From assembly GCF_900156815.1 (NCBI RefSeq), contig NZ_FTOT01000002.1:248001-312000 (forward strand): 64,000 nt of DNA, in the 5' to 3' direction. The stretch comes from Gemmobacter megaterium. Lineage in GTDB: Bacteria; Pseudomonadota; Alphaproteobacteria; Rhodobacterales; Rhodobacteraceae. Under the pieces are notes generated by a model, which saw only the letters and a list, made by a program, of their open reading frames with translations, was not told the DNA's origin and searched no databases. Every line of letters begins with the position of its first letter. The first letter of the stretch is position 1. The translations under genes were made by a program, and so were the position numbers. Shown here piece by piece: positions 98 through 17,333 of this stretch.

Positions 98-187
98 GGT
101 GCGGCACGGCGCACCATTCCCCTGCGCGCGCCTTGCGCTATGATCCCGCCTGCGACCCGGACCGCCGTCGCCCGAAAGGACACCGCC

Positions 188-1345
188 ATGCCTGCCGAAC
201 CGACCCGTGGCGCCAGGGAGATCCGCCGCCTGAGAAACGCTCTGCCCTTCTGGATCTCGTTGCTGTTGCTGCCGGTGGCATGGGTGGCGGCGACGGTGGG
301 CGGCTGGGCGGTGCTGCTGCTGCCGCTGTTCGGCTGGGGCATGGTCACGGTGCTGGATATTGCGGGCGGGCTGGACGAGTCCAACCCGGACCCGCAGGTC
401 GGCGAGGGGGATCTGCTCTGGTACCGGCTGATCACCCTGATCTGGTTTCCGGTCCAGTTCGTGACCGTGTTCGGCTGTCTGTGGTGGGCGACCCATGGCG
501 GCATGGAGGGCACGCTGGAAAAGATCGGGCTGTTCTTCGGCCTAGGCGTGATTTCCGGCGCGGTCGGCATCGTCTATGCCCACGAGCTGCTGCACCAGCG
601 CAACCGGGCGGAACGCTGGCTGGGTGATCTGCTGTTGGCGATGGTGTTGTATTCGCATTTCCGCTCGGAACACCTGCTGGTGCATCACCGCTATGTCGCC
701 ACCCCGCGCGATCCGGTATCGGCCCGCTACAACGAAGGGTTCCACCGCTATTACCTGCGCGTGCTGCGAAGCTGTCCGCCATCCGCCTGGCGGGCCGAGG
801 CGCAGATGCTGGCGCGCAAGGGGCTGGGCCCATGGCATTGGTCGAACCCGTTCTGGAAATACGCCGCATTGCAGGGCGCGATGCTGGGCCTTGCCCTGGC
901 GATTGGCGGCTGGGCCGGGCTGGGGCTGTTTCTGGTGCAGGCGTCCAGTGCGATCTGGCAACTGGAACTGACAAACTACATCGAACATTATGGGCTGACC
1001 CGGCGTCATCTGGGCGATGGACGATACGAACATGTCCTGCCGCGCCATAGCTGGAACGCCGCGCACAAGGTATCCAACTGGTTCCTGATCAACCTTCAGC
1101 GTCATTCCGACCACCATTACAAGCCGGATCGCCGTTTTCCGCTGTTGCAGACCTATACCGCCGACGAGGCGCCGCAACTGCCCTATGGCTATCCGGCCAT
1201 GACGACGCTGGCCATGATACCCCCGCTCTGGCGCCGGGTGATGAACCCGCGCGTGCGCGCCTGGCGGCGGCAATTCTATCCCGACATCGAGGATTGGACC
1301 CCCTACAATCGTGGGCGGCTGCCAAAACCGCGCGGCGCGTCCTGA
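188..1345 (+). CDS. alkB: alkane 1-monooxygenase (AlkB-type membrane di-iron hydroxylase)
   Basis: Integral membrane non-haem di-iron enzyme that hydroxylates the terminal carbon of alkanes, using electrons from rubredoxin. The histidine clusters of the family are all visible: HELLHQ from residue 132, EHLLVHH 161-167, NYIEHYG 263-269 and LQRHSDHH 303-310, between hydrophobic segments near residues 20-75, 95-130 and 225-260. ATG 188 is chosen over an in-frame ATG at 140 because GAAAGGA lies just ahead of it; this gives 385 residues, normal for AlkB. No rubredoxin or rubredoxin reductase gene is adjacent, so the electron donors must be encoded elsewhere. Substrate chain length cannot be read from the sequence. 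Confidence 0.9.
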   Translation: MPAEPTRGAREIRRLRNALPFWISLLLLPVAWVAATVGGWAVLLLPLFGWGMVTVLDIAGGLDESNPDPQVGEGDLLWYRLITLIWFPVQFVTVFGCLWWATHGGMEGTLEKIGLFFGLGVISGAVGIVYAHELLHQRNRAERWLGDLLLAMVLYSHFRSEHLLVHHRYVATPRDPVSARYNEGFHRYYLRVLRSCPPSAWRAEAQMLARKGLGPWHWSNPFWKYAALQGAMLGLALAIGGWAGLGLFLVQASSAIWQLELTNYIEHYGLTRRHLGDGRYEHVLPRHSWNAAHKVSNWFLINLQRHSDHHYKPDRRFPLLQTYTADEAPQLPYGYPAMTTLAMIPPLWRRVMNPRVRAWRRQFYPDIEDWTPYNRGRLPKPRGAS

Positions 1346-1483
1346 GGCCATGTCTTTGCCCGAAAATTGCCGCAATTCGATGGATCGGGCATCCGCCACA
1401 GGCAGGTTCCGGCCCTAGCTCTGTCCGGGCCGCGTGACTCAAAAACGCGAGATAGCGCCATACCGGCTGGCCAGACCCACAAG

Positions 1484-1503
1484 ATGTGTCGATTCGGACA
1501 CAT
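1484..1503. promoter_or_regulatory. inverted repeat in the 312-bp leader of the adhesin gene
   Basis: The gap 1346-1657 holds no convincing gene. It contains a perfect 7-bp inverted repeat, ATGTGTC (1484-1490) and GACACAT (1497-1503), with a 6-base spacer. Further on is the 10-bp palindrome GATTCGAATC (1545-1554), followed directly by the near-palindrome GGGGAATTTTCCC (1555-1567). Such sites between a metabolic gene and an adhesin gene are reasonable operator candidates. No regulator family can be named and no -35/-10 pair is convincing. Confidence 0.35.
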
Positions 1504-1657
1504 ATGCCCGCCCGATTCGCCGATCCGCCCCATTTTCCGCACACGATTCGAATCGGGGAATTTTCCCACTGGCGATTGTGGCGGTCGTTGGGTATCTTCG
1601 TGGCAATAACAGAGAAAAAGCAGCCCAAGCGCTGCGGTCTGAGGCGGAGCAGTAACT

Positions 1658-4600
1658 ATGGCTAAGGCGATTGATTTCGTCTTGCGCTCGCGTATGGGCG
1701 CAATTCGGAAAGGTGTGATCTCCGACGGTGACAACACCACCAGCATTGACCTGACAGGGGGCGGCGATGTGTCGCTGAACCTGCGCAAGGCCGATGTCCT
1801 CGGATATGTACGCGACGGCAACGATCTGCACATCACCCTGGCAGATGGGCGCATGGTGGCGGTCAAGGGCTATTTCGGCGCTTCGGGGCCCGCGAACCGG
1901 CTGTTCCTGTCGACCGATGGCGACATCACGATGGTGGCGCTGGATGGCGGACCCGAAAACAGCATGGTGCCGACCTATGGCCGCACCGACGCCTGGGGCA
2001 AATGGAGCCCGAATGACGCGCTGACCTTCCTGAACGATGTCGACGTCGCACCGGGCGAAGACGATATCGCGGGCATGGCCCCGTTTACACCGGCACTGCT
2101 GGGTGGGATCGGTGGCGGCCTGGGACCGGCCGCAGCCATCGTCGGCGGCGCCACGCTTCTGGCTGCCTCCAGCTCTGGCAGTTCCGCAGATCCGACGGAG
2201 CCGACAGAACCAACGGAACCGACAGAGCCAACGGAGCCAACGGAGCCGACAGAACCAACGGAGCCGACAGAACCCACGGAGCCGACGGAACCGACAGAAC
2301 CAACGGAGCCGACAGAACCCACGGAACCAACGGAGCCGACAGAACCCACGGAGCCGACGGAGCCAACGGAGCCAACGGAGCCGACAGAACCCACGGAGCC
2401 AACGGAACCGACGGAGCCGACGGAACCGACAGAACCCACGGAGCCGACAGAACCCACGGAGCCGACGGAACCGACAGAACCAACGGAGCCGACAGAACCC
2501 ACGGAGCCGACGGAGCCAACGGAGCCGACAGAACCCACGGAGCCAACGGAACCGACGGAGCCGACGGAGCCGACAGAACCCACGGAGCCAACGGAACCGA
2601 CGGAGCCAACGGAGCCGACAGAACCCACGGAGCCAACGGAACCGACGGAACCGACGGAGCCGACGGAGCCGACAGAACCCACGGAGCCGACGGAACCGAC
2701 AGAACCAACGGAGCCAACGGAACCGACGGAGCCGACGGAACCAACGGAGCCGACAGAACCCACGGAGCCGACGGAGCCAACGGAGCCGACAGAACCCACG
2801 GAGCCGACGGAGCCAACGGAACCGACGGAGCCAACGGAGCCAACGGAGCCGACAGAACCAACGGAACCGACAGAACCCACGGAGCCGACGGAGCCAACGG
2901 AACCGACAGAACCCACGGAGCCGACAGAACCCACGGAGCCGACGGAACCGACCGAGCCGACCTGCCCGACCGATCCGACAGAGCCAACGGTTCCGACAGA
3001 GCCGACCGAGCCAACGGAACCGACAGAACCCACGGAGCCGACGGCACCGACCGAGCCGACAGAGCCCACGGTTCCAACGGAACCGACCGAGCCAACGGAA
3101 CCGACAGAACCCACGGAGCCGACGGCACCGACCGAGCCGACCTGCCCGACCGATCCGACAGAGCCCACGGTTCCGACAGAGCCGACCGAGCCAACGGAAC
3201 CGACAGAACCCACGGAGCCGACGGCGCCGACCGATCCGACTTGCCCGACCGATCCGACAGAGCCCACGGCTCCGACAGAGCCGACCGAGCCAACGGAACC
3301 GACAGAACCCACGGAGCCGACGGCACCGACCGATCCTACCTGCCCGACCGATCCAACAGAGCCCACGGTTCCAACGGAACCGACCGAGCCAACGGAACCG
3401 ACAGAACCAACGGAGCCAACGGCACCGACCGAGCCGACCTGCCCGACCGATCCGACAGAGCCCACGGTTCCGACAGAGCCGACCTGTCCGACAGAGCCGA
3501 CCTGCCCTGTCACCGACGTCGATCCTTCGGTCGACAATCCGGGTGCGACATGGCTGATCACCGGCAATGACGCCGCACAGCGGATCAGTGTCACGGGCTG
3601 GGCTCCTGCCGGATCTGCGGTGGTCGTCGTCCTGGGCGGCAAGGCGGTGGCAGCCACCACCGGCGCCAATGGCCGCTGGGAGGTCGCCTTCGAGGGCGGC
3701 ACACTCCCTGCGGATGGGACCTGGCGCGCCTCTGTCACCGTCACCGAACCAAGCGGAGAGGTGACGCATCTTGCCGGGCCACGGGCCATCATCGACCTGA
3801 CCCCGCCGGATCTGGACCTGACCGCAGGCACCGAAAGCACCGGCCATGTGTTCGATACGGAGGACCGCGCCGATGGCGTGGAAATCGGCGGCACATCGGA
3901 ACCCGGCGCCAGGATCACCATCACGCTGGAGGGCGTGGCTGGTGGCACCGCAACGGTCTGGGCCGGAATGGATGGCACATGGGACGTCACCTTCCCCGCC
4001 GGAATGTTCCCGACCGGCAACTATGAACAGCCGATCTCGGTCATGGCCGAAGACGCCTATGGCAATGCTGTCACCACCCGCGACGCGGTGGTCATCGACG
4101 CCCATGGCTGCGGCTGTGCCCGGATCAGCATCGATCCCGTGACCGCCGACAACACCGTCAACGCGGCCGAGGATCAGGCCGGCGTGACACTGAGCGGAAC
4201 AGCCATGGCAGGCGCCACCGTCAGCCTGGTTCTGAAGCTGGAGAACGGCGAGACGCTGGAGGCGGAAACCACCGCCAACACCGCCGGGCTGTGGTCGGCA
4301 CGGTTGCCCAAGGATCTGCTGCCGGATGGCGAATATGGCGCAACGCTGATTGCCACGGCAAAAGGCACGAACGGGGCCGAAGTGCGCGACGTGCACGAAT
4401 TCCGGGTGGATACGCTGGTGAACACCGGCGAGATCCACGCCGACAGCGTCACGGGCGATGGCATCGTCAATGCAGCGGAACTGCTGGGCGGCTTCGTGCT
4501 CACCGGCAAGACCGAAGCAGGGGCCACCTCGGTCGATGTGCATTTCGAAGGGGTGCGCCGCGCGGCCACCGTCGCCAGCGATGGCAACTGGAGCGTGACC

Positions 4601-5275
4601 TTCGGTCCCGGCGAGATCGCGGGCGGCGAGTTCAGCTCGGCGGTCACGGTCCGGGCGGTCGATGCCGCAGGCAATGTGCGGATCGACACCGCGCTGATTG
4701 CCGTCGACAGCATCGCCCCCGAAGCGGCCCGGATCACCGGCGCCACCCATGGCACGGCAGGCGCATTGGGGCTGGCGACCGAGGGCGACGCCACGCTGTA
4801 TGTGGTGGATGAGGACGGCCACAGTGCCGTCGCCTCGACAAGCTATGCCACACCGGCGGGCCAGATGCATTTCTTCGATGCGCCCTTGCCGGACGGCAGC
4901 ACGCTGGTGGTCAGCAACATGGATGCGGCTGGCAACCGCACCGATGCGCTGGTGGTGCTGGGCGACGAAGGCCGGACCGAACTCGACCTGTCGCGGATGG
5001 ATCTCGACGGGTTCCAGATCGCCGAAATCGACCTTGGCTTTGCGCCCGAGGCCAATCTGGTGATCACCGAGGCACAGTTGCGCGACCTGTCGGGCAGCAC
5101 CGATGCGCTGGTGGTGCACGGCGATGCACAAGACACCGTCACGGCCCTGGGTGCGCAGGCAACCGGCGCCAATGTCGAGATCGAAGGCAACACCTACCAC
5201 GTCTATACGCTGGGCGATGCAGGCGCGACGCTGATCGTGGGCGAGGACGTGACCGTCCATACCTCTGTCATCTGA
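1658..5275 (+). CDS. BapA-type type I secreted surface adhesin with Pro-Thr-Glu repeat stalk
   Basis: Very large secreted protein (1205 aa), probably for adhesion or biofilm formation. Residues 1 to about 130 match the BapA-type prefix domain (opening MAKAIDFVLRSRMGAIRKG), followed by a Gly/Ala-rich hydrophobic stretch near 145-175. Residues 179-616 are 146 uninterrupted Pro-Thr-X triplets, X mostly Glu. About four bacterial Ig-like domains follow (roughly 620-715, 725-815, 816-920, 920-1015). The C-terminus (TYHVYTLGDAGATLIVGED) is of the kind found on type I secreted Bap-like proteins. There is no Sec signal peptide. The next three genes encode a complete type I exporter, which is the main support for the secretion route. 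Oddities are nine cysteines, rare in type I substrates, and extreme acidity. GGAG lies about 10 bases before ATG 1658. Confidence 0.85.
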   Translation: MAKAIDFVLRSRMGAIRKGVISDGDNTTSIDLTGGGDVSLNLRKADVLGYVRDGNDLHITLADGRMVAVKGYFGASGPANRLFLSTDGDITMVALDGGPENSMVPTYGRTDAWGKWSPNDALTFLNDVDVAPGEDDIAGMAPFTPALLGGIGGGLGPAAAIVGGATLLAASSSGSSADPTEPTEPTEPTEPTEPTEPTEPTEPTEPTEPTEPTEPTEPTEPTEPTEPTEPTEPTEPTEPTEPTEPTEPTEPTEPTEPTEPTEPTEPTEPTEPTEPTEPTEPTEPTEPTEPTEPTEPTEPTEPTEPTEPTEPTEPTEPTEPTEPTEPTEPTEPTEPTEPTEPTEPTEPTEPTEPTEPTEPTEPTEPTEPTEPTEPTEPTEPTEPTEPTEPTEPTEPTEPTEPTEPTEPTEPTEPTEPTEPTEPTEPTEPTEPTEPTCPTDPTEPTVPTEPTEPTEPTEPTEPTAPTEPTEPTVPTEPTEPTEPTEPTEPTAPTEPTCPTDPTEPTVPTEPTEPTEPTEPTEPTAPTDPTCPTDPTEPTAPTEPTEPTEPTEPTEPTAPTDPTCPTDPTEPTVPTEPTEPTEPTEPTEPTAPTEPTCPTDPTEPTVPTEPTCPTEPTCPVTDVDPSVDNPGATWLITGNDAAQRISVTGWAPAGSAVVVVLGGKAVAATTGANGRWEVAFEGGTLPADGTWRASVTVTEPSGEVTHLAGPRAIIDLTPPDLDLTAGTESTGHVFDTEDRADGVEIGGTSEPGARITITLEGVAGGTATVWAGMDGTWDVTFPAGMFPTGNYEQPISVMAEDAYGNAVTTRDAVVIDAHGCGCARISIDPVTADNTVNAAEDQAGVTLSGTAMAGATVSLVLKLENGETLEAETTANTAGLWSARLPKDLLPDGEYGATLIATAKGTNGAEVRDVHEFRVDTLVNTGEIHADSVTGDGIVNAAELLGGFVLTGKTEAGATSVDVHFEGVRRAATVASDGNWSVTFGPGEIAGGEFSSAVTVRAVDAAGNVRIDTALIAVDSIAPEAARITGATHGTAGALGLATEGDATLYVVDEDGHSAVASTSYATPAGQMHFFDAPLPDGSTLVVSNMDAAGNRTDALVVLGDEGRTELDLSRMDLDGFQIAEIDLGFAPEANLVITEAQLRDLSGSTDALVVHGDAQDTVTALGAQATGANVEIEGNTYHVYTLGDAGATLIVGEDVTVHTSVI
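2192..2962 (+). repeat. 9-bp tandem repeat, 85 Pro-Thr-Glu codon triplets
   Basis: Eighty-five consecutive PTE triplets followed by a final Pro-Thr, with no amino acid substitution. At DNA level the unit is 9 bp (CCN-ACR-GAR), so slippage changes length without breaking the frame. The synonymous codons are not random. ACA is coupled to GAA, and codon CCC occurs only inside GACAGAACCCACGG, which I count about 16 times by eye. This suggests the array grew by copying blocks of two or more units. No frame on either strand meets a stop inside the array. Confidence 0.95.
2963..3505 (+). repeat. 99-bp higher-order repeat of the Pro-Thr-X array
   Basis: The Pro-Thr-X periodicity continues for 61 triplets, but X now follows a pattern of 11 triplets (33 residues): C, D, E, V, E, E, E, E, E, A, then E or D. 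Successive blocks have 11, 9, 11, 11, 11 and 8 triplets; the 9-triplet block lacks C and D, and one block has A in place of V. Cysteine codons start at 2963, 3143, 3242, 3341, 3440, 3485 and 3503. The last two are closer together because the final block is truncated. Confidence 0.93.
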
Positions 5276-5283
5276 CGGGGCCT

Positions 5284-5311
5284 GTCCGACAGGGTCTTTG
5301 CCCTGTCGGAC
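5284..5311 (+). terminator. hairpin between adhesin and exporter genes
   Basis: Perfect 11-bp stem GTCCGACAGGG/CCCTGTCGGAC with a 6-base loop, starting 9 bases after the adhesin stop codon. There is no clear U-tract, so it may be a partial terminator or an mRNA 3'-end stabiliser that sets the adhesin:exporter ratio. Confidence 0.6.
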
Positions 5312-5347
5312 CTTACCATGTGACGAGTCGGAAAAGGGAACGTGGCC

Positions 5348-6664
5348 ATGGTCGATCCGGCATACCGCGCCCTGATGCGGGGCGTATCTCTGGCCGGTCT
5401 GGCGCTGGCGCTGTCGGGCTGCATGGGCGGATGGACCCCCGGTGCCGGTGTCACGAAATCCGCGCAATCTCCGGGCCAGGAGGCGCTGGCCTCACGCCCT
5501 GAACGCAAGGTCGAGGGGTCGGCGGTCATCGCCGATCTGGCAGGCCGGCGCAGCATCCTTCCCGCCGGTTCCAGCTATGACCACATCGCCCGCGCGGTGC
5601 TGGCCGCCGATGCGGGCAGCGCACAGGCCGAATTGCGCGTGAAGCGACTGACCGCCGAGGCGCGGTCCAAGAACTGGCTGCCGTCGCTGGGCCCGTCGGT
5701 CAGCCTGACCTCGCTGAGTTCGGTGGCCACATCCTTGCTGTTGAACCAGACGCTGTTCGATTTCGGCCGCCGCAAGGCCGAGCGTGAATATGCGGTGGCC
5801 GATGTCGAGGTGGCGGCAGTAACCCTGTCGGTCGATGCGAACCGCAGGGTGTTCCAGGCGCTGAGCCTCTATGTCGATGCAGAGGCCGCGCGCGCCCGCA
5901 CAGCCGTTGCCCTTGATGCGCTGTCCCGTCTGTCCGATTTCGACCGCATCATGGCCCTGCGCGTCCAGGGCGGGGTCGCCAACATGTCGGAGCAGACAGT
6001 CCTGCGCCAGAAACTGAACGAAATGCAGGCCACGCTCCAGGCCGACCGTGACGCCGAACTGCTGGCGGCATCGGAACTGGACCAGATGGCGCAGGCGCCG
6101 GTTTCGGGATCTGCCGGTCTGACAGAGTTGCCGGGCGCCATGCCGGGTGTCACGCCGCTGGCCGTCCGGCTTGCAGAGGCGGAAAAGGAACGTACCATTG
6201 CCGAACTGAAGGTCAACCGCGCGGACTATCTGCCGGGGCTGGGGGCCAGCAGCAATCTGGGCAAGGGTGGCATCGGTGTGTCGGGCGATATCGACAACGG
6301 GCTGGGTCTGGGCAGCAAGGCGGCGCTGGAAGCGGTGAACGCCGGGGCCGATGCGGCCGTCGCGCGGGTGGCACAGTCCGGGCAGGATGCCGCACGCAAG
6401 AAACAGGCGCTGGAACTGAAAATCGCAAACCTTGACCGGCAAAGCGCGGCACAAGCCGATGTGGCCCGGCAGATGCGCGACAACCTCCGGCGGTTCGAAC
6501 AACAGTACAAGGCCGGGGTGCGACCGCTGATGGATCTTGTGACGCAGCACGAATCCCTTGCCGCAATGGAGCGTGATCTGGTCAACATGCGGCACGAACG
6601 CGCCCGCGCCCGGCTGGAAATCGCGCGCGATCTTGGCCTTCTGGCGGATGGGGCCGGGATATGA
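5348..6664 (+). CDS. TolC-family outer membrane lipoprotein of the type I secretion system
   Basis: Outer membrane channel component of the exporter (438 aa). The N-terminus is a lipoprotein signal with lipobox LSGC (ALALSGCMGG), followed by alternating helical segments with conserved TolC-like features such as LLNQTLFDFGRRKAER and a second half around LEIARDLG at the end. ATG 5348 is preferred to GTG 5342 because AGGGA (5335-5339) stands 8 bases ahead of it. The stop codon overlaps the ATG of the ABC exporter by 4 bp, implying translational coupling. Acylated TolC relatives are common in Bap/Lap-type secretion operons. Confidence 0.85.
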   Translation: MVDPAYRALMRGVSLAGLALALSGCMGGWTPGAGVTKSAQSPGQEALASRPERKVEGSAVIADLAGRRSILPAGSSYDHIARAVLAADAGSAQAELRVKRLTAEARSKNWLPSLGPSVSLTSLSSVATSLLLNQTLFDFGRRKAEREYAVADVEVAAVTLSVDANRRVFQALSLYVDAEAARARTAVALDALSRLSDFDRIMALRVQGGVANMSEQTVLRQKLNEMQATLQADRDAELLAASELDQMAQAPVSGSAGLTELPGAMPGVTPLAVRLAEAEKERTIAELKVNRADYLPGLGASSNLGKGGIGVSGDIDNGLGLGSKAALEAVNAGADAAVARVAQSGQDAARKKQALELKIANLDRQSAAQADVARQMRDNLRRFEQQYKAGVRPLMDLVTQHESLAAMERDLVNMRHERARARLEIARDLGLLADGAGI

Positions 6665-8994
6665 CGGACAAGGTTGTCTCGTTCGACATGGGTGCGGCGC
6701 GCAGGGCGGGTCAGTCGACGCTGACCCCGCTGTCCCGCAGCGCAAGCCGCATCGAACGCGCCGCCACCACCGACCCTGCACCGCCGCCCTCTGCCCCGGT
6801 GCAGGACCAGCGCATCGGCGCACCCACAACGCCAGCCGCCCGCCCCCGGCCCGGACTATCGGCGCGCGCCAGGGCACGGGCCGAACTTGCAGCGGTCTAT
6901 GCCGGCTGGCTGGGCACAGAGGTGCCACTCGCGGAACTGACCGAACATCTGATGCGCGAACATGGTGAGGCGCCGGTCGGCCTGACCGAATTGGCGGCAG
7001 CCCTGCGGTGTCATGGGCTGACCACCAGCGTCGAGACCACGCGCGCCCCCGCTGCCGGTCTGTGGCCCGCACTGGCCCGGATGACCAGCGGGCAACTGAT
7101 CCTGGTCCTGTCGCAAGAGCGCGACACGCTGACCATCTACGACGCGACCCAGCCCGACCGCCGGGCCGAAGTCCCCGTGGCGGAATTCGCACCGTTCTTT
7201 GCCGGAGAGACCCTGCGCGCACGCCCGACCCTTGGCCAATTGACTAGGGCGCATACCGGCACGGGCAAGCCGCCGCATTGGTTCTGGGGCGAATTTCGCC
7301 ACCATCGCCGCGCCTTTTCCGAAGTCGCCCTCGGGTCGTTCGTGGCCAATGTGCTGGCGGTGGCCGTCGCGCTGTTTTCGCTTCAGGTCTATGACAGGGT
7401 GATCCCGCATCAGTCGCAAGCCACGCTCTGGGTTCTGGCGATTGGCGCCGGGCTGGCGCTGCTGATGGAATCCATGCTGAAGCTCGCCCGCGCGCGGTTG
7501 ATGGACAGCGCGGGCCGCCGGATCGAGCTGTCGATCCAGACCCGGCTGATGGACCGCCTGCTGGGCATGAAACGCGAGCCCGGCGGAGCCTCGCCCAGTT
7601 CGCTGTTCCAGGCGATGCGCGAATTCGGCTCGGTGCGTGAATTCTTCACCGCCTCGACCGTGGGAACCGTGGCCGACCTGCCCTTTCTGCTGCTGTTTCT
7701 GGTGCTGATCTGGTCGATCGGCGGGCCAATCGTTGCCGTGGTGGTGCTGGGCGGGATCCTGATGGTGATCCCCGGCTTTCTGGCGCAAAAGCGCATGGTG
7801 CGGCTGACGCAGGAAACCCATGGCGCGGGCGCCCGGTCGGCCCGGTTGCTGCACGAGACGATCTTCGAGGCGGAAACCCTGCGCACCCAGCGGGGCGAGG
7901 CGCGGGTCCGGCGGCTGTGGGCGGAACTTTCGGCGCTGACCTCGCTGAAATCCTCGGATCAGCGGCGGCTGGCATCGCAACTGACCTATTGGGCGCAAGG
8001 CGTTCAGCAGGCCACCTACATCACCACCGTCGTCATCGGCGCCTATATGGTGTTTGCCGGCGAGTATACGGTTGGCACCATTATCGCCATCGGTATCCTG
8101 ACCGGGCGCACGCTGGCGCCGCTGTCGCAGTTGTCGGCGACCTTTGCGCGCTGGTCCAACGTCAAGACCGCGCTGGAAGGGCTGGAAACCATCGCCTCTG
8201 CCGATCAGGTCGAGGCCGAGGATCGCAGCTATCTGCGCCGCGACCGTATTGGCGGCGCCTGGGAGATGAAGGGCATCGCCTTTCGCTATGATGCCGATGG
8301 CACGGCGACGCTGGACATTCCCGCGCTGGCGATCACAGCGGGGCAGCGCATTGCCGTTCTGGGCCCGAATGGATCGGGCAAATCCACCTTCCTCAAGCTG
8401 CTTGCCGGGTTGTATGCGCCCAGCGAAGGGCGGCTGATGCTGGACGGTGTGGAAATGGCGCAGATCCACCCCCGCGACCTGCGCCGCTCGGTCGGGTATC
8501 TGGGGCAAGAGGTGCGGCTGTTCGCCGGAACCCTGCGCGACAACCTGAACCTCAGCCAGTTGGAACGCGACGACGACCGCCTGTTCGCCGCGCTGGAATT
8601 CGCCGGGCTGGCCCCCTTTGTCAAAGGGCATCCCAAGGGGCTGGACATGGAAATCCGCGATGGCGGCGAGGGGCTGTCGGTCGGCCAGCGCCAAAGCATC
8701 GGCTGGGCCCGCATCTGGTTGCAGGATCCGCGTGTCGTGCTGCTGGACGAACCCACCGCCGCGCTGGACCAGACACTGGAGGCGACCGTCGTGTCCCGGC
8801 TGGGGGCCTGGCTGCAGGGGCGCACGGCCATCATCGCCACTCACCGCGTGCCGATCCTGGCGCTGACGGACCGTGTGCTGATCCTGCAGAATGGCAAGCT
8901 GGCCGTGGACGGCCCGCGCGAGGCGGTGCTGGCCCATCTGATGAACGGCAAGGGCAACGCCCCCCGGCCGCAGACCGAGGTGCGTACCGGATGA
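6661..8994 (+). CDS. type I secretion ABC exporter (permease/ATPase, LssB/LapB-like)
   Basis: Inner membrane energiser of adhesin secretion (777 aa). Residues 1 to about 195 hold a Pro/Ala-rich tail and a C39-peptidase-like fold without the catalytic Cys. The transmembrane domain spans about 210-490. The ATPase domain has Walker A GPNGSGKST (568-576), signature LSVGQRQ, Walker B VVLLDEPT with Asp696, and H-loop THR. The inactive C39-like domain is typical of exporters that hold unfolded substrates without cutting a leader peptide. It overlaps its neighbours by 4 bp at both ends, so TolC, ATPase and HlyD genes are one tightly coupled unit. Confidence 0.92.
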   Translation: MTDKVVSFDMGAARRAGQSTLTPLSRSASRIERAATTDPAPPPSAPVQDQRIGAPTTPAARPRPGLSARARARAELAAVYAGWLGTEVPLAELTEHLMREHGEAPVGLTELAAALRCHGLTTSVETTRAPAAGLWPALARMTSGQLILVLSQERDTLTIYDATQPDRRAEVPVAEFAPFFAGETLRARPTLGQLTRAHTGTGKPPHWFWGEFRHHRRAFSEVALGSFVANVLAVAVALFSLQVYDRVIPHQSQATLWVLAIGAGLALLMESMLKLARARLMDSAGRRIELSIQTRLMDRLLGMKREPGGASPSSLFQAMREFGSVREFFTASTVGTVADLPFLLLFLVLIWSIGGPIVAVVVLGGILMVIPGFLAQKRMVRLTQETHGAGARSARLLHETIFEAETLRTQRGEARVRRLWAELSALTSLKSSDQRRLASQLTYWAQGVQQATYITTVVIGAYMVFAGEYTVGTIIAIGILTGRTLAPLSQLSATFARWSNVKTALEGLETIASADQVEAEDRSYLRRDRIGGAWEMKGIAFRYDADGTATLDIPALAITAGQRIAVLGPNGSGKSTFLKLLAGLYAPSEGRLMLDGVEMAQIHPRDLRRSVGYLGQEVRLFAGTLRDNLNLSQLERDDDRLFAALEFAGLAPFVKGHPKGLDMEIRDGGEGLSVGQRQSIGWARIWLQDPRVVLLDEPTAALDQTLEATVVSRLGAWLQGRTAIIATHRVPILALTDRVLILQNGKLAVDGPREAVLAHLMNGKGNAPRPQTEVRTG

Positions 8995-10163
8995 CCACCA
9001 CATTCGAACAGGATCTGGAAGATCGGTCACGGATGCCCAGCCTGACCATCCGTCTGGTGGCCGCGACCGTCGCCCTGTTCATCGGCTGGGCCGCCTTTGC
9101 CACGGTCGATGAAATCGTGCGCGGCAACGGCGAGATCATTCCAACATCGCGGCCCCAGATCATCCAGAACCTCGAAGGCGGGATTCTGGCCGAGTTGATG
9201 GTGCGTCAGGGCGATGTGGTGAACCCCGGCGATGTGCTCGCCCGGTTGTACGGCACCCAGTTTCAAAGCCAGGTCGATGACCTGACCGCCCAGATCGACA
9301 CGCTGGAAGTGCGCCGCCTGCGGCTGGAGGCCGAAGTGGCCGGGCACCACAGTTTTGACCTGCCGCCCAGCCTCGCCGCGCGGGTGCCCGACATCGCCGC
9401 ATCGGAACGCGCCTTGCTCGTGGCCCGTCAGGCCGATTACGAAAGCCGCCGCGACGGCACCAAGCGGGTGCTGGATCAGGCCGCCAAGGAACGCAGCCTG
9501 CTGGAAGACCTGCACAAGAAGGAAATCGTCTCGCTGATTGAGGTGACCCGCGCGCGCAAGGCCCATTCCGACGCAGAGAACCGCCACAAGGAGATCATCA
9601 CCCAGAGCGGGCTGGACCGCGCCAGCGAGCTGTCGGACACACTGAAGGAACTTGCCTCTTTGCGCCAGACGCTGAAGGCAGCGCAGGACCAGTTGAACCG
9701 CACCATCCTGACCTCGCCCATGAAGGGCATCGTCAACAGCCTGTCCGTCACCACCATCGGCGGTGTTGTCCGGCCCGGCGAGGAAATCCTCCAGATCATT
9801 CCGCTGGACGAGGAATTGTTCATCGAGGCCCGCGTCAAACCTCAGGACATTGCGAACGTCAAACCCGGCCAGAAGGCAACGATCAAGCTGTCGGCTTATG
9901 ATTATACGATCTATGGCGCGATGCATGGCGAAGTCACCTTCGTCTCTGCCGATACGTTCAAGGACGAACGGTCACGCGACGAGCAGACCTACTACCGCGT
10001 CACAGTTTCTGTGGACATGGCGCATCTGTCCGAACGGCAGAGCACGCTGGAAATCCGCCCCGGTATGCAAGCAACGGTCGAACTGCACACCGGATCCAAG
10101 ACGGTGCTGCATTACCTGACCAAGCCGCTGTACAAATCCCGCGAGGCGCTGCGCGAAAAATAG
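8991..10163 (+). CDS. HlyD-family periplasmic adaptor of the type I secretion system
   Basis: Membrane fusion protein linking the ABC exporter to the TolC channel (390 aa). It has a short cytoplasmic N-terminus, one transmembrane helix near residues 20-40, a lipoyl-like half-motif (NLEGGILAELMVRQGDVV), a long coiled-coil region at about 95-240, and the second barrel half ending in the family pattern LEIRPGMQATVELHTGSKTV. It starts inside the exporter stop codon (ATGA). No LapD/LapG-type retention or cleavage genes accompany it. Confidence 0.92.
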   Translation: MTTTFEQDLEDRSRMPSLTIRLVAATVALFIGWAAFATVDEIVRGNGEIIPTSRPQIIQNLEGGILAELMVRQGDVVNPGDVLARLYGTQFQSQVDDLTAQIDTLEVRRLRLEAEVAGHHSFDLPPSLAARVPDIAASERALLVARQADYESRRDGTKRVLDQAAKERSLLEDLHKKEIVSLIEVTRARKAHSDAENRHKEIITQSGLDRASELSDTLKELASLRQTLKAAQDQLNRTILTSPMKGIVNSLSVTTIGGVVRPGEEILQIIPLDEELFIEARVKPQDIANVKPGQKATIKLSAYDYTIYGAMHGEVTFVSADTFKDERSRDEQTYYRVTVSVDMAHLSERQSTLEIRPGMQATVELHTGSKTVLHYLTKPLYKSREALREK

Positions 10164-15625: not shown

Positions 15626-17275
15626 TCAGAACAGAAAGTTGTCCGCATCGCGCAGATCGTCAAGCGCGACATTCTGCACCAGAACCGTGCCATCGCCGAC
15701 CCGGAGCAGCACGTCATCGCCCTGCGCGGCAAAGGAAATGTCGCGCAGGCGAGAGGCGTTGCCGAACTGGAGCACGTCCATCCCGATCTCGAAATCGGTG
15801 ATCACATCGTCGCCATGCCCACGGGCAAAGCGGAACACATCCGCGCCCCAGCCGCCGGTCAGCACATCATTGCCCTTGCCGCCGATCAGCGTGTCATCGC
15901 CATCCATTCCAAACAGCGAATCCTTGCCACCGCCGCCGCGCAGGACATTGCCCTCCTGATTGCCGACCAGCCGGTCCGCCTTGCCGCTGCCGGTCAGGTG
16001 CTCGAACCCGTCCAGCCAGAACCAGCCGCGCGAGTCCTTGCCCTCGGGGACGATCTGCTGATAGCCACTGGCCGACAAGGACACGTCAAGCGCCACCCTG
16101 GCCCGCGACAGATCCAGCGTATCACTGCCGTTTCCGCCCCAAATACGCACCGAGGCAAGCGGCTCCAGCCCGGCCGTGGCAAGCGTGTCATGGCCATCGC
16201 CCAGATCCACCAGACCGGCGCCGCCGGTGCCCAGCCGCACCAGATCGTCGCCATCCATGGTGCGGATCGTGCCGACATATTCGGCATTGGTCCTGACAAC
16301 ATCGCCGCCCAGCCCGGTCCGGATGGAATCGGCACCGCCCTTCAACACCAGGTCCACCCCATCGGGCCCCGTCGCCACCAGCGCCCCGACCCAGCCCTTG
16401 GAGGTGATCTTCTGCGTCGCGCCGGTGGTTCCGATCAGGGAGATCTGGCCAATCCCCCCGGTGCCGATCCGCAGGTCCACGGTGGTCTCATGCGCCACCA
16501 GCGCATCCACATGGCCCGCGCCGGTGGTCAGCCGCAGATCTCCCGCATCGGTCTTGAGCATGGAGATCCGGGCCGCGTCGGACAGGGTCAGGCGCATCTC
16601 TCCGCCTGCCATCATCGCCTGTTCGATCATGGCAGTTCCCGAAAGGTCAAAGGTCTTGACGCCCCCATCGCTGCGCAGGCTCTCAATCCGGGCGTCGCCG
16701 GTCATCGTCAGGCTGTCGCGCCCGTCATACAGCCGGACCCAGCCGATCGCGGCCCCCTCGCCCATGGTGATCCGGTCATTCCCGTCGCCCATGATCAGCG
16801 CCTCGACGCTGCCGGTCCCGGCAGTAAATCGGTTGTTGCCGCCGCCCATGTCGATGGTGGTGACGCGGCCGCTGCCGCCGATGACGGTATCGTTGCCCTC
16901 AAACAACTCGACCGATGTGGTTCGCCGGATGCCCAGCGTGATCGCATTGCTTTCGGTGTCAAAGGCGGTGATGTGGCGCACCCGCGTTTCGCCCAGCACG
17001 ACCTGCGCCCCGCCATCCCCCAGCCACAGCCAGTCGATGCGGCGTTCCAGACCATCGCCGGACTCCGTGAAGCGTGACGAGACCCCGAAATCCCCAAGGC
17101 GCAGGTGGCGGATCAACCAGTCGCCCTGCATGGTGAAGTCCAGCCGATGGTCGGTTCCGTCGTCGGGAAAGGCGATCCCCAGAAAATCGAGCCGCCCGTC
17201 CTGCCAGGTGTAGGTCTGGTCAAGCTCTATTGGCGTGACCCCGTCCAGAACGATGGTGTGCACAACTGTGGCCAT
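15626..17275 (-). CDS. RTX-type calcium-binding beta-solenoid protein
   Basis: Secreted-type protein of 549 aa with no Sec signal. Residues 1-130 have no recognised domain. Residues about 134-365 form roughly eleven loose repeats of 18-22 residues (pattern G-x-G-x-V-x-x-L-x-M-x-D-G-N-D-x-I), as expected for a parallel beta-roll or solenoid. Residues about 447-480 hold typical RTX nonapeptides (GGGGKDSLF, GMDGDDTLI, GGKGNDVLT), then GDDVITDFEIGMD and a C-terminus ending NFLF, typical of type I export signals. The in-frame ATG at 17275 with GAGGAGA ahead is chosen. No exporter is adjacent; the type I system about 5 kb upstream is a candidate, not proven. No enzymatic domain is visible. Confidence 0.8.
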   Translation of the reverse strand: MATVVHTIVLDGVTPIELDQTYTWQDGRLDFLGIAFPDDGTDHRLDFTMQGDWLIRHLRLGDFGVSSRFTESGDGLERRIDWLWLGDGGAQVVLGETRVRHITAFDTESNAITLGIRRTTSVELFEGNDTVIGGSGRVTTIDMGGGNNRFTAGTGSVEALIMGDGNDRITMGEGAAIGWVRLYDGRDSLTMTGDARIESLRSDGGVKTFDLSGTAMIEQAMMAGGEMRLTLSDAARISMLKTDAGDLRLTTGAGHVDALVAHETTVDLRIGTGGIGQISLIGTTGATQKITSKGWVGALVATGPDGVDLVLKGGADSIRTGLGGDVVRTNAEYVGTIRTMDGDDLVRLGTGGAGLVDLGDGHDTLATAGLEPLASVRIWGGNGSDTLDLSRARVALDVSLSASGYQQIVPEGKDSRGWFWLDGFEHLTGSGKADRLVGNQEGNVLRGGGGKDSLFGMDGDDTLIGGKGNDVLTGGWGADVFRFARGHGDDVITDFEIGMDVLQFGNASRLRDISFAAQGDDVLLRVGDGTVLVQNVALDDLRDADNFLF

Positions 17276-17333
17276 GTCCGTCTCCTCGCCCTTCGGCTGG
17301 CTGGCAGCTTTGGCGCACACTACCTGACCGGCA

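Follow-up and report, generated by a model that had tools for sequence, protein, structure and literature searches.

The window, a stretch of 64,000 nucleotides from Gemmobacter megaterium, encodes an adhesin in which an array of Pro-Thr-X units separates the N-terminal domain from the Ig-like domains. The array occupies a slot that is short in most relatives and filled with different tandem repeats in others. We consider it probable that the array is an enlarged linker, an acidic and extended spacer in a type I exported, N-terminally retained adhesin, which grew by blocks while selection kept its Pro and Thr residues. The adhesin gene and its parts are as follows.

1658-5275, plus strand: BapA-like adhesin gene, 1205 amino acids, frame open along its whole length
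1730-1924 (residues 25-89), plus strand: match to the BapA_N prefix domain (Pfam PF22783, 35.8 bits, cut-off 27)
about residues 1-110, plus strand: mostly beta-strand N-terminal domain (AlphaFold2 block-mean pLDDT 79-94)
2075-2191 (about residues 140-178), plus strand: Gly/Ala-rich segment ahead of the array (alignment; low pLDDT)
2192-3505 (residues 179-616), plus strand: array of 146 Pro-Thr-X units (translation and unit count)
2192-2956, plus strand: proximal part of the array, 85 units, all Pro-Thr-Glu, in which only third codon positions vary
2957-3505, plus strand: distal part of the array, 61 units, in a higher-order repeat of 11 units that includes Cys, Asp, Val and Ala (unit count)
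3506-4912, plus strand: Ig-like region (Big_6, Big_13 and Ca_tandemer; Pfam and NCBIfam)
4913-5272, plus strand: conserved C-terminal 120 amino acids, presumed type I secretion signal

The initial annotation had placed a BapA-type N-terminus before the array and Ig-like domains after it, and both were recovered by profile searches. The BapA_N match exceeded its Pfam cut-off, and the NCBIfam model biofilm_BapA_N (NF033677) reached 33.7 bits, narrowly below its cut-off of 35. Big_6 and Big_13 matched C-terminal of the array, and tandem Ig-like domains are thus present in the adhesin. These domains are of the Ca2+-stabilised type: Ca_tandemer matched with 137 bits, Ig_like_ice also matched, and a home-made Ig model gave four matches. 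No RTX family that would indicate GGxGxDxxx nonapeptides was among the three Pfam matches of the adhesin, and a simple pattern found two adjacent RTX nonapeptides in one of 99 family ORFs. The Gly/Ala-rich segment ahead of the array was conserved in kind across 14 aligned members. An AlphaFold2 model of residues 1-175 only had a mean pLDDT of 68.6 and showed the N-terminal domain as mostly beta strands. For this domain no convincing match to a solved structure or fold was found (best E 0.45 in one search, nothing at E ≤0.001 in another), and at that mean pLDDT a missing match says little. Judged by its sequence, with a BapA_N prefix, tandem Ig-like domains and adjoining type I secretion genes, the protein is a BapA-like adhesin. 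Long open frames also cross the array on the minus strand (1439-5467, 1342 amino acids; 1975-4020, 681 amino acids) and are a trap for gene callers; they were set aside as shadows of the repeat.

The assignment to the type I secreted adhesins is borne out by the genes directly downstream, which follow the adhesin gene nearly without gaps.

140-1345: fatty-acid-desaturase-family gene, upstream of the adhesin (profile match)
5342-6664, plus strand: outer membrane TolC-like protein (Pfam OEP)
6661-8994, plus strand: type I secretion permease/ATPase (ABC_tran, ABC_membrane; best NCBIfam match type_I_sec_LssB, 675 bits, cut-off 693)
8991-10163, plus strand: HlyD-type periplasmic adaptor (TIGR01843, 337 bits, cut-off 209)

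This arrangement was conserved. The N-terminal domain retrieved 68 loci, nearly all from Rhodobacteraceae-type bacteria by record title, and 66 of them were scored for the operon (L211, missed by default HMMER filters, and L216, a weak match, were left out); four of these end at a contig edge. Directly downstream of the adhesin, tolC was present in 61, the ABC gene in 60 and hlyD in 60 of the 62 other loci. One locus (L159) had downstream room, yet lacked all three genes. Of 108 family ORFs, 102 contained the C-terminal 120 amino acids, which ended at most five residues from the ORF end in 94. By gene order, then, the adhesin and its tolC, ABC and hlyD genes constitute one conserved adhesin operon. 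A tblastn search with the N-terminal domain found no plasmid-borne relatives. The type I system may serve a further client that is encoded 5 kb away in the window, on the minus strand at 15626-17320: a 564-amino-acid protein whose RTX calcium-binding repeats matched HemolysinCabind with 41 bits.

The array itself comprises 438 residues, or 36% of the protein, in consecutive units that never leave the frame, exactly as the initial annotation had counted. Pro and Thr were present in all 146 units, and the third residue was Glu in 121, Cys in seven, Asp in seven, Ala in six and Val in five. With 128 Asp or Glu residues and no Lys or Arg, the spacer is as strongly acidic as had been claimed. A run of this length excludes chance, and no shuffle test was needed for it. 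An assembly artefact, which had been named beforehand as speaking against the array, or a collapsed or expanded repeat is extremely improbable as its source, even though the assemblies of both congeners that carry such an array break within it. The contig around the array has 842,971 bases. Exact repeats in the array reach at most 68 bp and none of its 77-mers occurs twice, so ordinary short reads of 100-250 bases could resolve it; like arrays were found at the same place in two further species of the genus. An artefact was rejected on these grounds for the array as such, the exact count excepted: the number 146 comes from a single draft assembly, in 45 contigs.

Three of five genomes of the genus, including that of the window, contained the adhesin with a Pro-Thr-X array. 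Identity to the window protein was 75% in the N-terminal domain and 83% after the array in one congener (G003), and 71% and 62% in the other (G004). The G003 array consists of 11 full units, a gap of 1185 Ns and 23 units; in G004, 34 units reach the end of one contig and 118 lie at the end of another. The three-residue register was unbroken in each contiguous stretch counted apart (146; 11 and 23; 34 and 118). Pro was kept in 146 of 146 units in the window, 34 of 34 in G003 and 144 of 152 in G004, and Thr in 146 of 146, 34 of 34 and 150 of 152. The third residue varied freely, being mostly Glu in the window and Asp, Glu or Val in G004 (33 Val in 118 units). If the G003 gap length is fair and the G004 ends are complete and do not overlap, the arrays are estimated at roughly 146, 166 and 152 units in the window, G003 and G004. 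They may thus be of similar length with different letters, which would speak against a freely changing stalk, neither estimate being secure.

In the two remaining genomes of the genus (G001 and G002) the Ig part had no counterpart, and the ABC gene was matched at 39-42% identity at best. G002 gave a weak N-domain match (E 2.1e-5), to a different protein. This BapA_N protein of 494 amino acids (L008, 217-1701, minus strand) has no Ig match; eight DDEDPPT-like units stand straight after its Gly stretch, with Gly-Leu-rich repeats beyond, and it shares its contig with another type I secretion gene. In the genome of the window, 12 Pro-Thr-Glu units (108 bp; G000:C33:46666-46779, loci L003 and L218) form a second array, in a different ORF of 1282 amino acids without a Pfam match. 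The Pro-Thr-Glu unit evidently arose more than once in this genome.

We defined the slot as the stretch between the Gly/Ala-rich segment and the first Ig domain and compared it across the family. A more sensitive family search brought no large extension of the set, the N-terminal domain being found in 107 of 394 family genomes at E 1e-8 with alignment against 111 of 394 at the looser limit of E 0.001. The survey covered the window and 104 of the 105 strong hits besides it (L223, in genome G093, was cut by a contig end and left out), and HMMER filters were off for the slot, cysteine and tree counts. Slot length ranged from 0 to 448 amino acids with a median of 16, and the slot was often Gly-rich. 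By one rule applied to all 105, 13 slots were tandem arrays (the window and 12 others), 10 were long without a clean array and 82 were short. The arrays were built of GD (L111, 202 amino acids, and L120), EP (L129 and L060), GGGDDTV (L077), DDTGPG (L086), DTGTDP (L145), DPVDPK (L115) and DPT (L096), and three others were Gly-Asp-rich (L061, L112 and L137). A second set, in which 67 of the 68 N-domain loci were measured (L216, a weak match, was left out), contained arrays in seven of the 67 slots; it overlaps the first and is not independent of it (e.g., L213 with L077, and L197 with L060). The window slot, at 448 amino acids, was the longest in both sets. Other fillings included GGDDTT in Salipiger pallidus (190 amino acids), GGGGDTTP in Pseudotabrizicola algicola (L211, 226 amino acids) and a Pro-Thr slot of 38 amino acids in a Pelagimonas MAG (L166). 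The slot of L226 looks overestimated because its N-domain boundary was placed early.

The initial annotation had regarded a simple-repeat spacer as unusual in such adhesins, and this view was not sustained. Slot arrays are present in 12 of 104 other members, and BapA of Paracoccus denitrificans is described as carrying 891 Asp-Ala repeats, which make up 1782 of its 2211 residues (PMC5588039). In the genus of L150, a MAG titled Paracoccus haematequi, three of four genomes had a match, in each case with a short Gly linker and no Asp-Ala run.

A tree of the N-terminal domain with 107 rows included the two congeners (L089 and L090), whose slots were not measurable and which were labelled as arrays by hand. 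The tree was a quick one, and 41 of its 104 inner branches had support under 80. It calls for no fewer than 12 changes of the array state, seven of them forced by branches with support of at least 95, and for 20 changes of the array-or-long state. The array label was slightly more clustered than by chance (20 of 500 shuffles were as low), as the trio of the genus would make it. Since most of the units are unrelated in sequence, the plain reading is that arrays would have arisen in the slot repeatedly and independently; the two GD arrays, and likewise the two EP arrays, might also have separate origins.

Two observations concern the records and searches themselves. A record titled Enemella evansiae (L213) holds an adhesin whose slot and ORF lengths equal those of G006. 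Enemella evansiae is an actinobacterium, and this record is probably either mistitled or mixed. Default HMMER filters missed the array-bearing adhesins L111 (GD) and L211 (GGGGDTTP), supposedly because of their repeats; both were found with the filters off, and surveys with default filters may undercount stalk-bearing adhesins.

The composition of the slots bears on a reading in which the array is a polyanion and not a ruler, so that its charge would matter for Ca2+ binding, repulsion of lipopolysaccharide, unfolded export or cation bridging in the matrix, and its length would be secondary. Many arrays (GD, EP, DDTGPG, GGGDDTV and DTGTDP) are acidic although their units, periods and predicted shapes are not alike. 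Asp plus Glu exceeded that of the post-slot part in 18 of 21 slots of at least 40 amino acids vs. 18 of 67 slots of 8-39 amino acids, and Lys plus Arg was below it in 16 of the 21. BapA of P. denitrificans is reported in excerpts of the source as 42.6% Asp, with biofilm formation stimulated by Ca2+ (PMC5588039). However, only six of 10 slots of at least 40 amino acids in the second set exceeded the rest of the protein in acidity, and the Ig region of the window adhesin is likewise acidic. Neither the slot of L211 nor that of L149, which is Gly-Ala-rich, was more acidic than the rest, and neither was the Pro-Thr slot of the Pelagimonas MAG, which is outside this length class. The acidity of long slots is not a rule, with three exceptions in 21 and four in 10 (overlapping sets). 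Charge alone also does not require the Pro-Thr frame, which was kept in the genus where the third residue is neutral, as in the 33 Val units of G004. We regard the polyanion reading as rather unlikely.

The array carries traces of how it grew. Tandem Repeats Finder reported periods of 18, 45 and 99 bp. Adjacent identical units were depleted (5 of 145 vs. 13.7 in shuffles, P 0.004), and matches were in excess at lags of five units (45 bp; 29 of 141 vs. 13.3), 11 units (99 bp; 37 of 135 vs. 12.9) and 20 units (180 bp; 31 of 126 vs. 11.9), each excess being higher than the highest of 3000 shuffles. Growth by duplication of multi-unit blocks fits these patterns. Slippage of single 9-bp units was rejected as the mode of growth because identical neighbours are depleted. 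The initial annotation had argued that a 9-bp unit lets the stalk change length without a frameshift; that part stands, as multiples of 9 bp keep the frame, but change by single units does not agree with the depleted neighbours and the lags of 5, 11 and 20 units.

In the 85 proximal units, the first and second positions of all three codons were invariant and third positions varied, giving nine unit variants. These variants need at least eight changes, all synonymous, when seven of 27 possible single changes are synonymous; the chance of this is about 2 in 100,000 if the changes are neutral and independent, a figure that is approximate given block copying. The Pro-Thr-Glu sequence is therefore under selection, or was until recently. 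Enlargement of a tolerant linker by recombination between repeats, with no selected role, would account for the short slots of 82 of the 105 members and for arrays scattered on the tree. Such neutral drift is nonetheless improbable. It does not explain 85 units without change at codon positions 1 and 2 and with many changes at position 3, nor a Pro-Thr frame and distal Cys units that were kept in all three congeners while the flanks diverged to 62-83% identity.

Cysteine is the least expected feature of the Pro-Thr-X stalk in a family that is nearly free of it. The part after the slot contained 12 Cys in 96,477 residues over the 105 members, and 96 members had none there. Cysteine-free proteins have been described among others that are also type I exported, namely the RTX lipases of one subfamily and S-layer RTX proteins, in excerpts of one source (PMC3034196). 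The window adhesin had seven Cys in the array (units 86, 106, 117, 128, 139, 144 and 146) and two in the Ig region; the array parts of G003 and G004 had four and nine. Pro-Thr-Cys units were present in all three congeners, and the last and third-last units had Cys in three of three. Further Cys units lay at similar distances from the Ig junction (8, 9 and 9 units; 19, 18 and 18 units). The only other Cys-bearing slot among the 105 was the EP array of L060, with three Cys; this locus, in genome G185, has one TAG within the frame. The Cys units of the window array were multiplied by block copying and do not represent seven separate events.

The obvious conjecture is that these residues form disulfide cross-links once the protein has been exported. 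The array may be a polyproline-like rod, and a polyproline II helix has three residues per turn and a rise of 0.31 nm per residue. In this conformation the third residue of every unit, whether acidic or Cys, would point to the same side of the rod. It is a doubtful but conceivable extension that the distal Cys of such a one-faced rod, at fixed distances from the Ig junction, form disulfides after export that join adjacent stalks or fix a stalk to the Ig part, so that covalent bundles result.

With the array as an enlarged linker, the reading that we prefer, the adhesin would leave the cell through its own type I system with the C-terminus leading. SiiE, in the excerpts cited, is exported in this order, and its N-terminus governs retention (PMC6272769). 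The BapA_N domain would remain at the cell, and the Ig-like domains would fold outside. The Pro-Thr-X array, adjoining the retained N-terminus, would be unfoldable, extended and highly acidic and would hold the Ig-like part off the cell surface, at a distance of as much as about 136 nm were it stretched out completely with a rise of 0.31 nm per residue. Duplication of multi-unit blocks would lengthen it, and selection would retain Pro and Thr. As 82 of 105 members have a short linker, the family cannot have reach as its basic function.

Retention controlled by the LapG protease (PF06035) is unlikely from the gene content. The genome of the window had no match, and control by LapG was rejected for it; the control search matched in one of 14 other genomes (Caulobacter). 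LapG was found in three of 30 other family members searched, the congener G003 among them.

Threonine next to proline also recalls mucins, whose composition the array resembles, and O-glycosylation of the Thr present in every unit would make it a hydrated, protease-resistant brush. This is very unlikely: no glycosyltransferase was among the five genes scanned at 140-10163, and several other slot arrays (GD and EP) lack Thr altogether.

One slot of a conserved secretion operon, filled with GD, EP, DDTGPG, GGGDDTV, GGGGDTTP, PTX and others, amounts to a natural experiment. Features common to the slot repeats should show what the slot needs, and whether length, charge or neither matters becomes testable. 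The conserved stalk Cys, unexpected in this adhesin family, are open to a simple biochemical test. In the open-access literature searched, we found no description of the Pro-Thr-X version, of recurrent filling of one slot by different repeats or of Cys in the stalk.

The first report of BapA is said to be that of Yoshida et al. in 2017. An adhesin of this kind with a giant acidic simple repeat has already been published, namely BapA of P. denitrificans (PMC5588039). Its gene lies upstream of bapBCD and is required for biofilm formation, which Ca2+ stimulates (PMC5588039). As described there, that envelope protein resembles the window adhesin in having three type I secretion genes directly downstream and a giant acidic simple repeat between distinct termini, but its unit is an Asp-Ala dipeptide repeated 891 times (PMC5588039), whereas the window has 146 Pro-Thr-X units with Cys.

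Salmonella BapA and SiiE, as far as the cited excerpts describe them, share the BapA_N-type prefix, the Ca2+-type Ig repeats and the C-terminal export signal (PMC6272769); the SiiEA model matched the window adhesin weakly (23.4 bits, cut-off 425). SiiE is lengthened by 53 Ig domains (PMC6272769), whereas here a tripeptide rod accompanies four matches to the Ig model. Adhesins of the LapA type, under LapG/LapD control, are likewise type I exported and retained by the N-terminus, as the window adhesin presumably is. They differ in that control, the genome of the window being without a member of the LapG family that three of 30 other members have.

The serine-aspartate stalks of staphylococcal SdrG and SdrC are also simple acidic repeats, and that of SdrG is said, in the excerpts available, to extend the ligand domain (PMC7616799, PMC5588039). 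These proteins are Gram-positive and cell-wall anchored, unlike the window adhesin, and no homology is implied. Periscope Proteins likewise have a repetitive stalk, whose copy number sets their reach according to the excerpted source; they are defined by highly identical, individually folding repeat domains (PMC9704523), whereas the three-residue unit of the window adhesin would be unable to fold alone.
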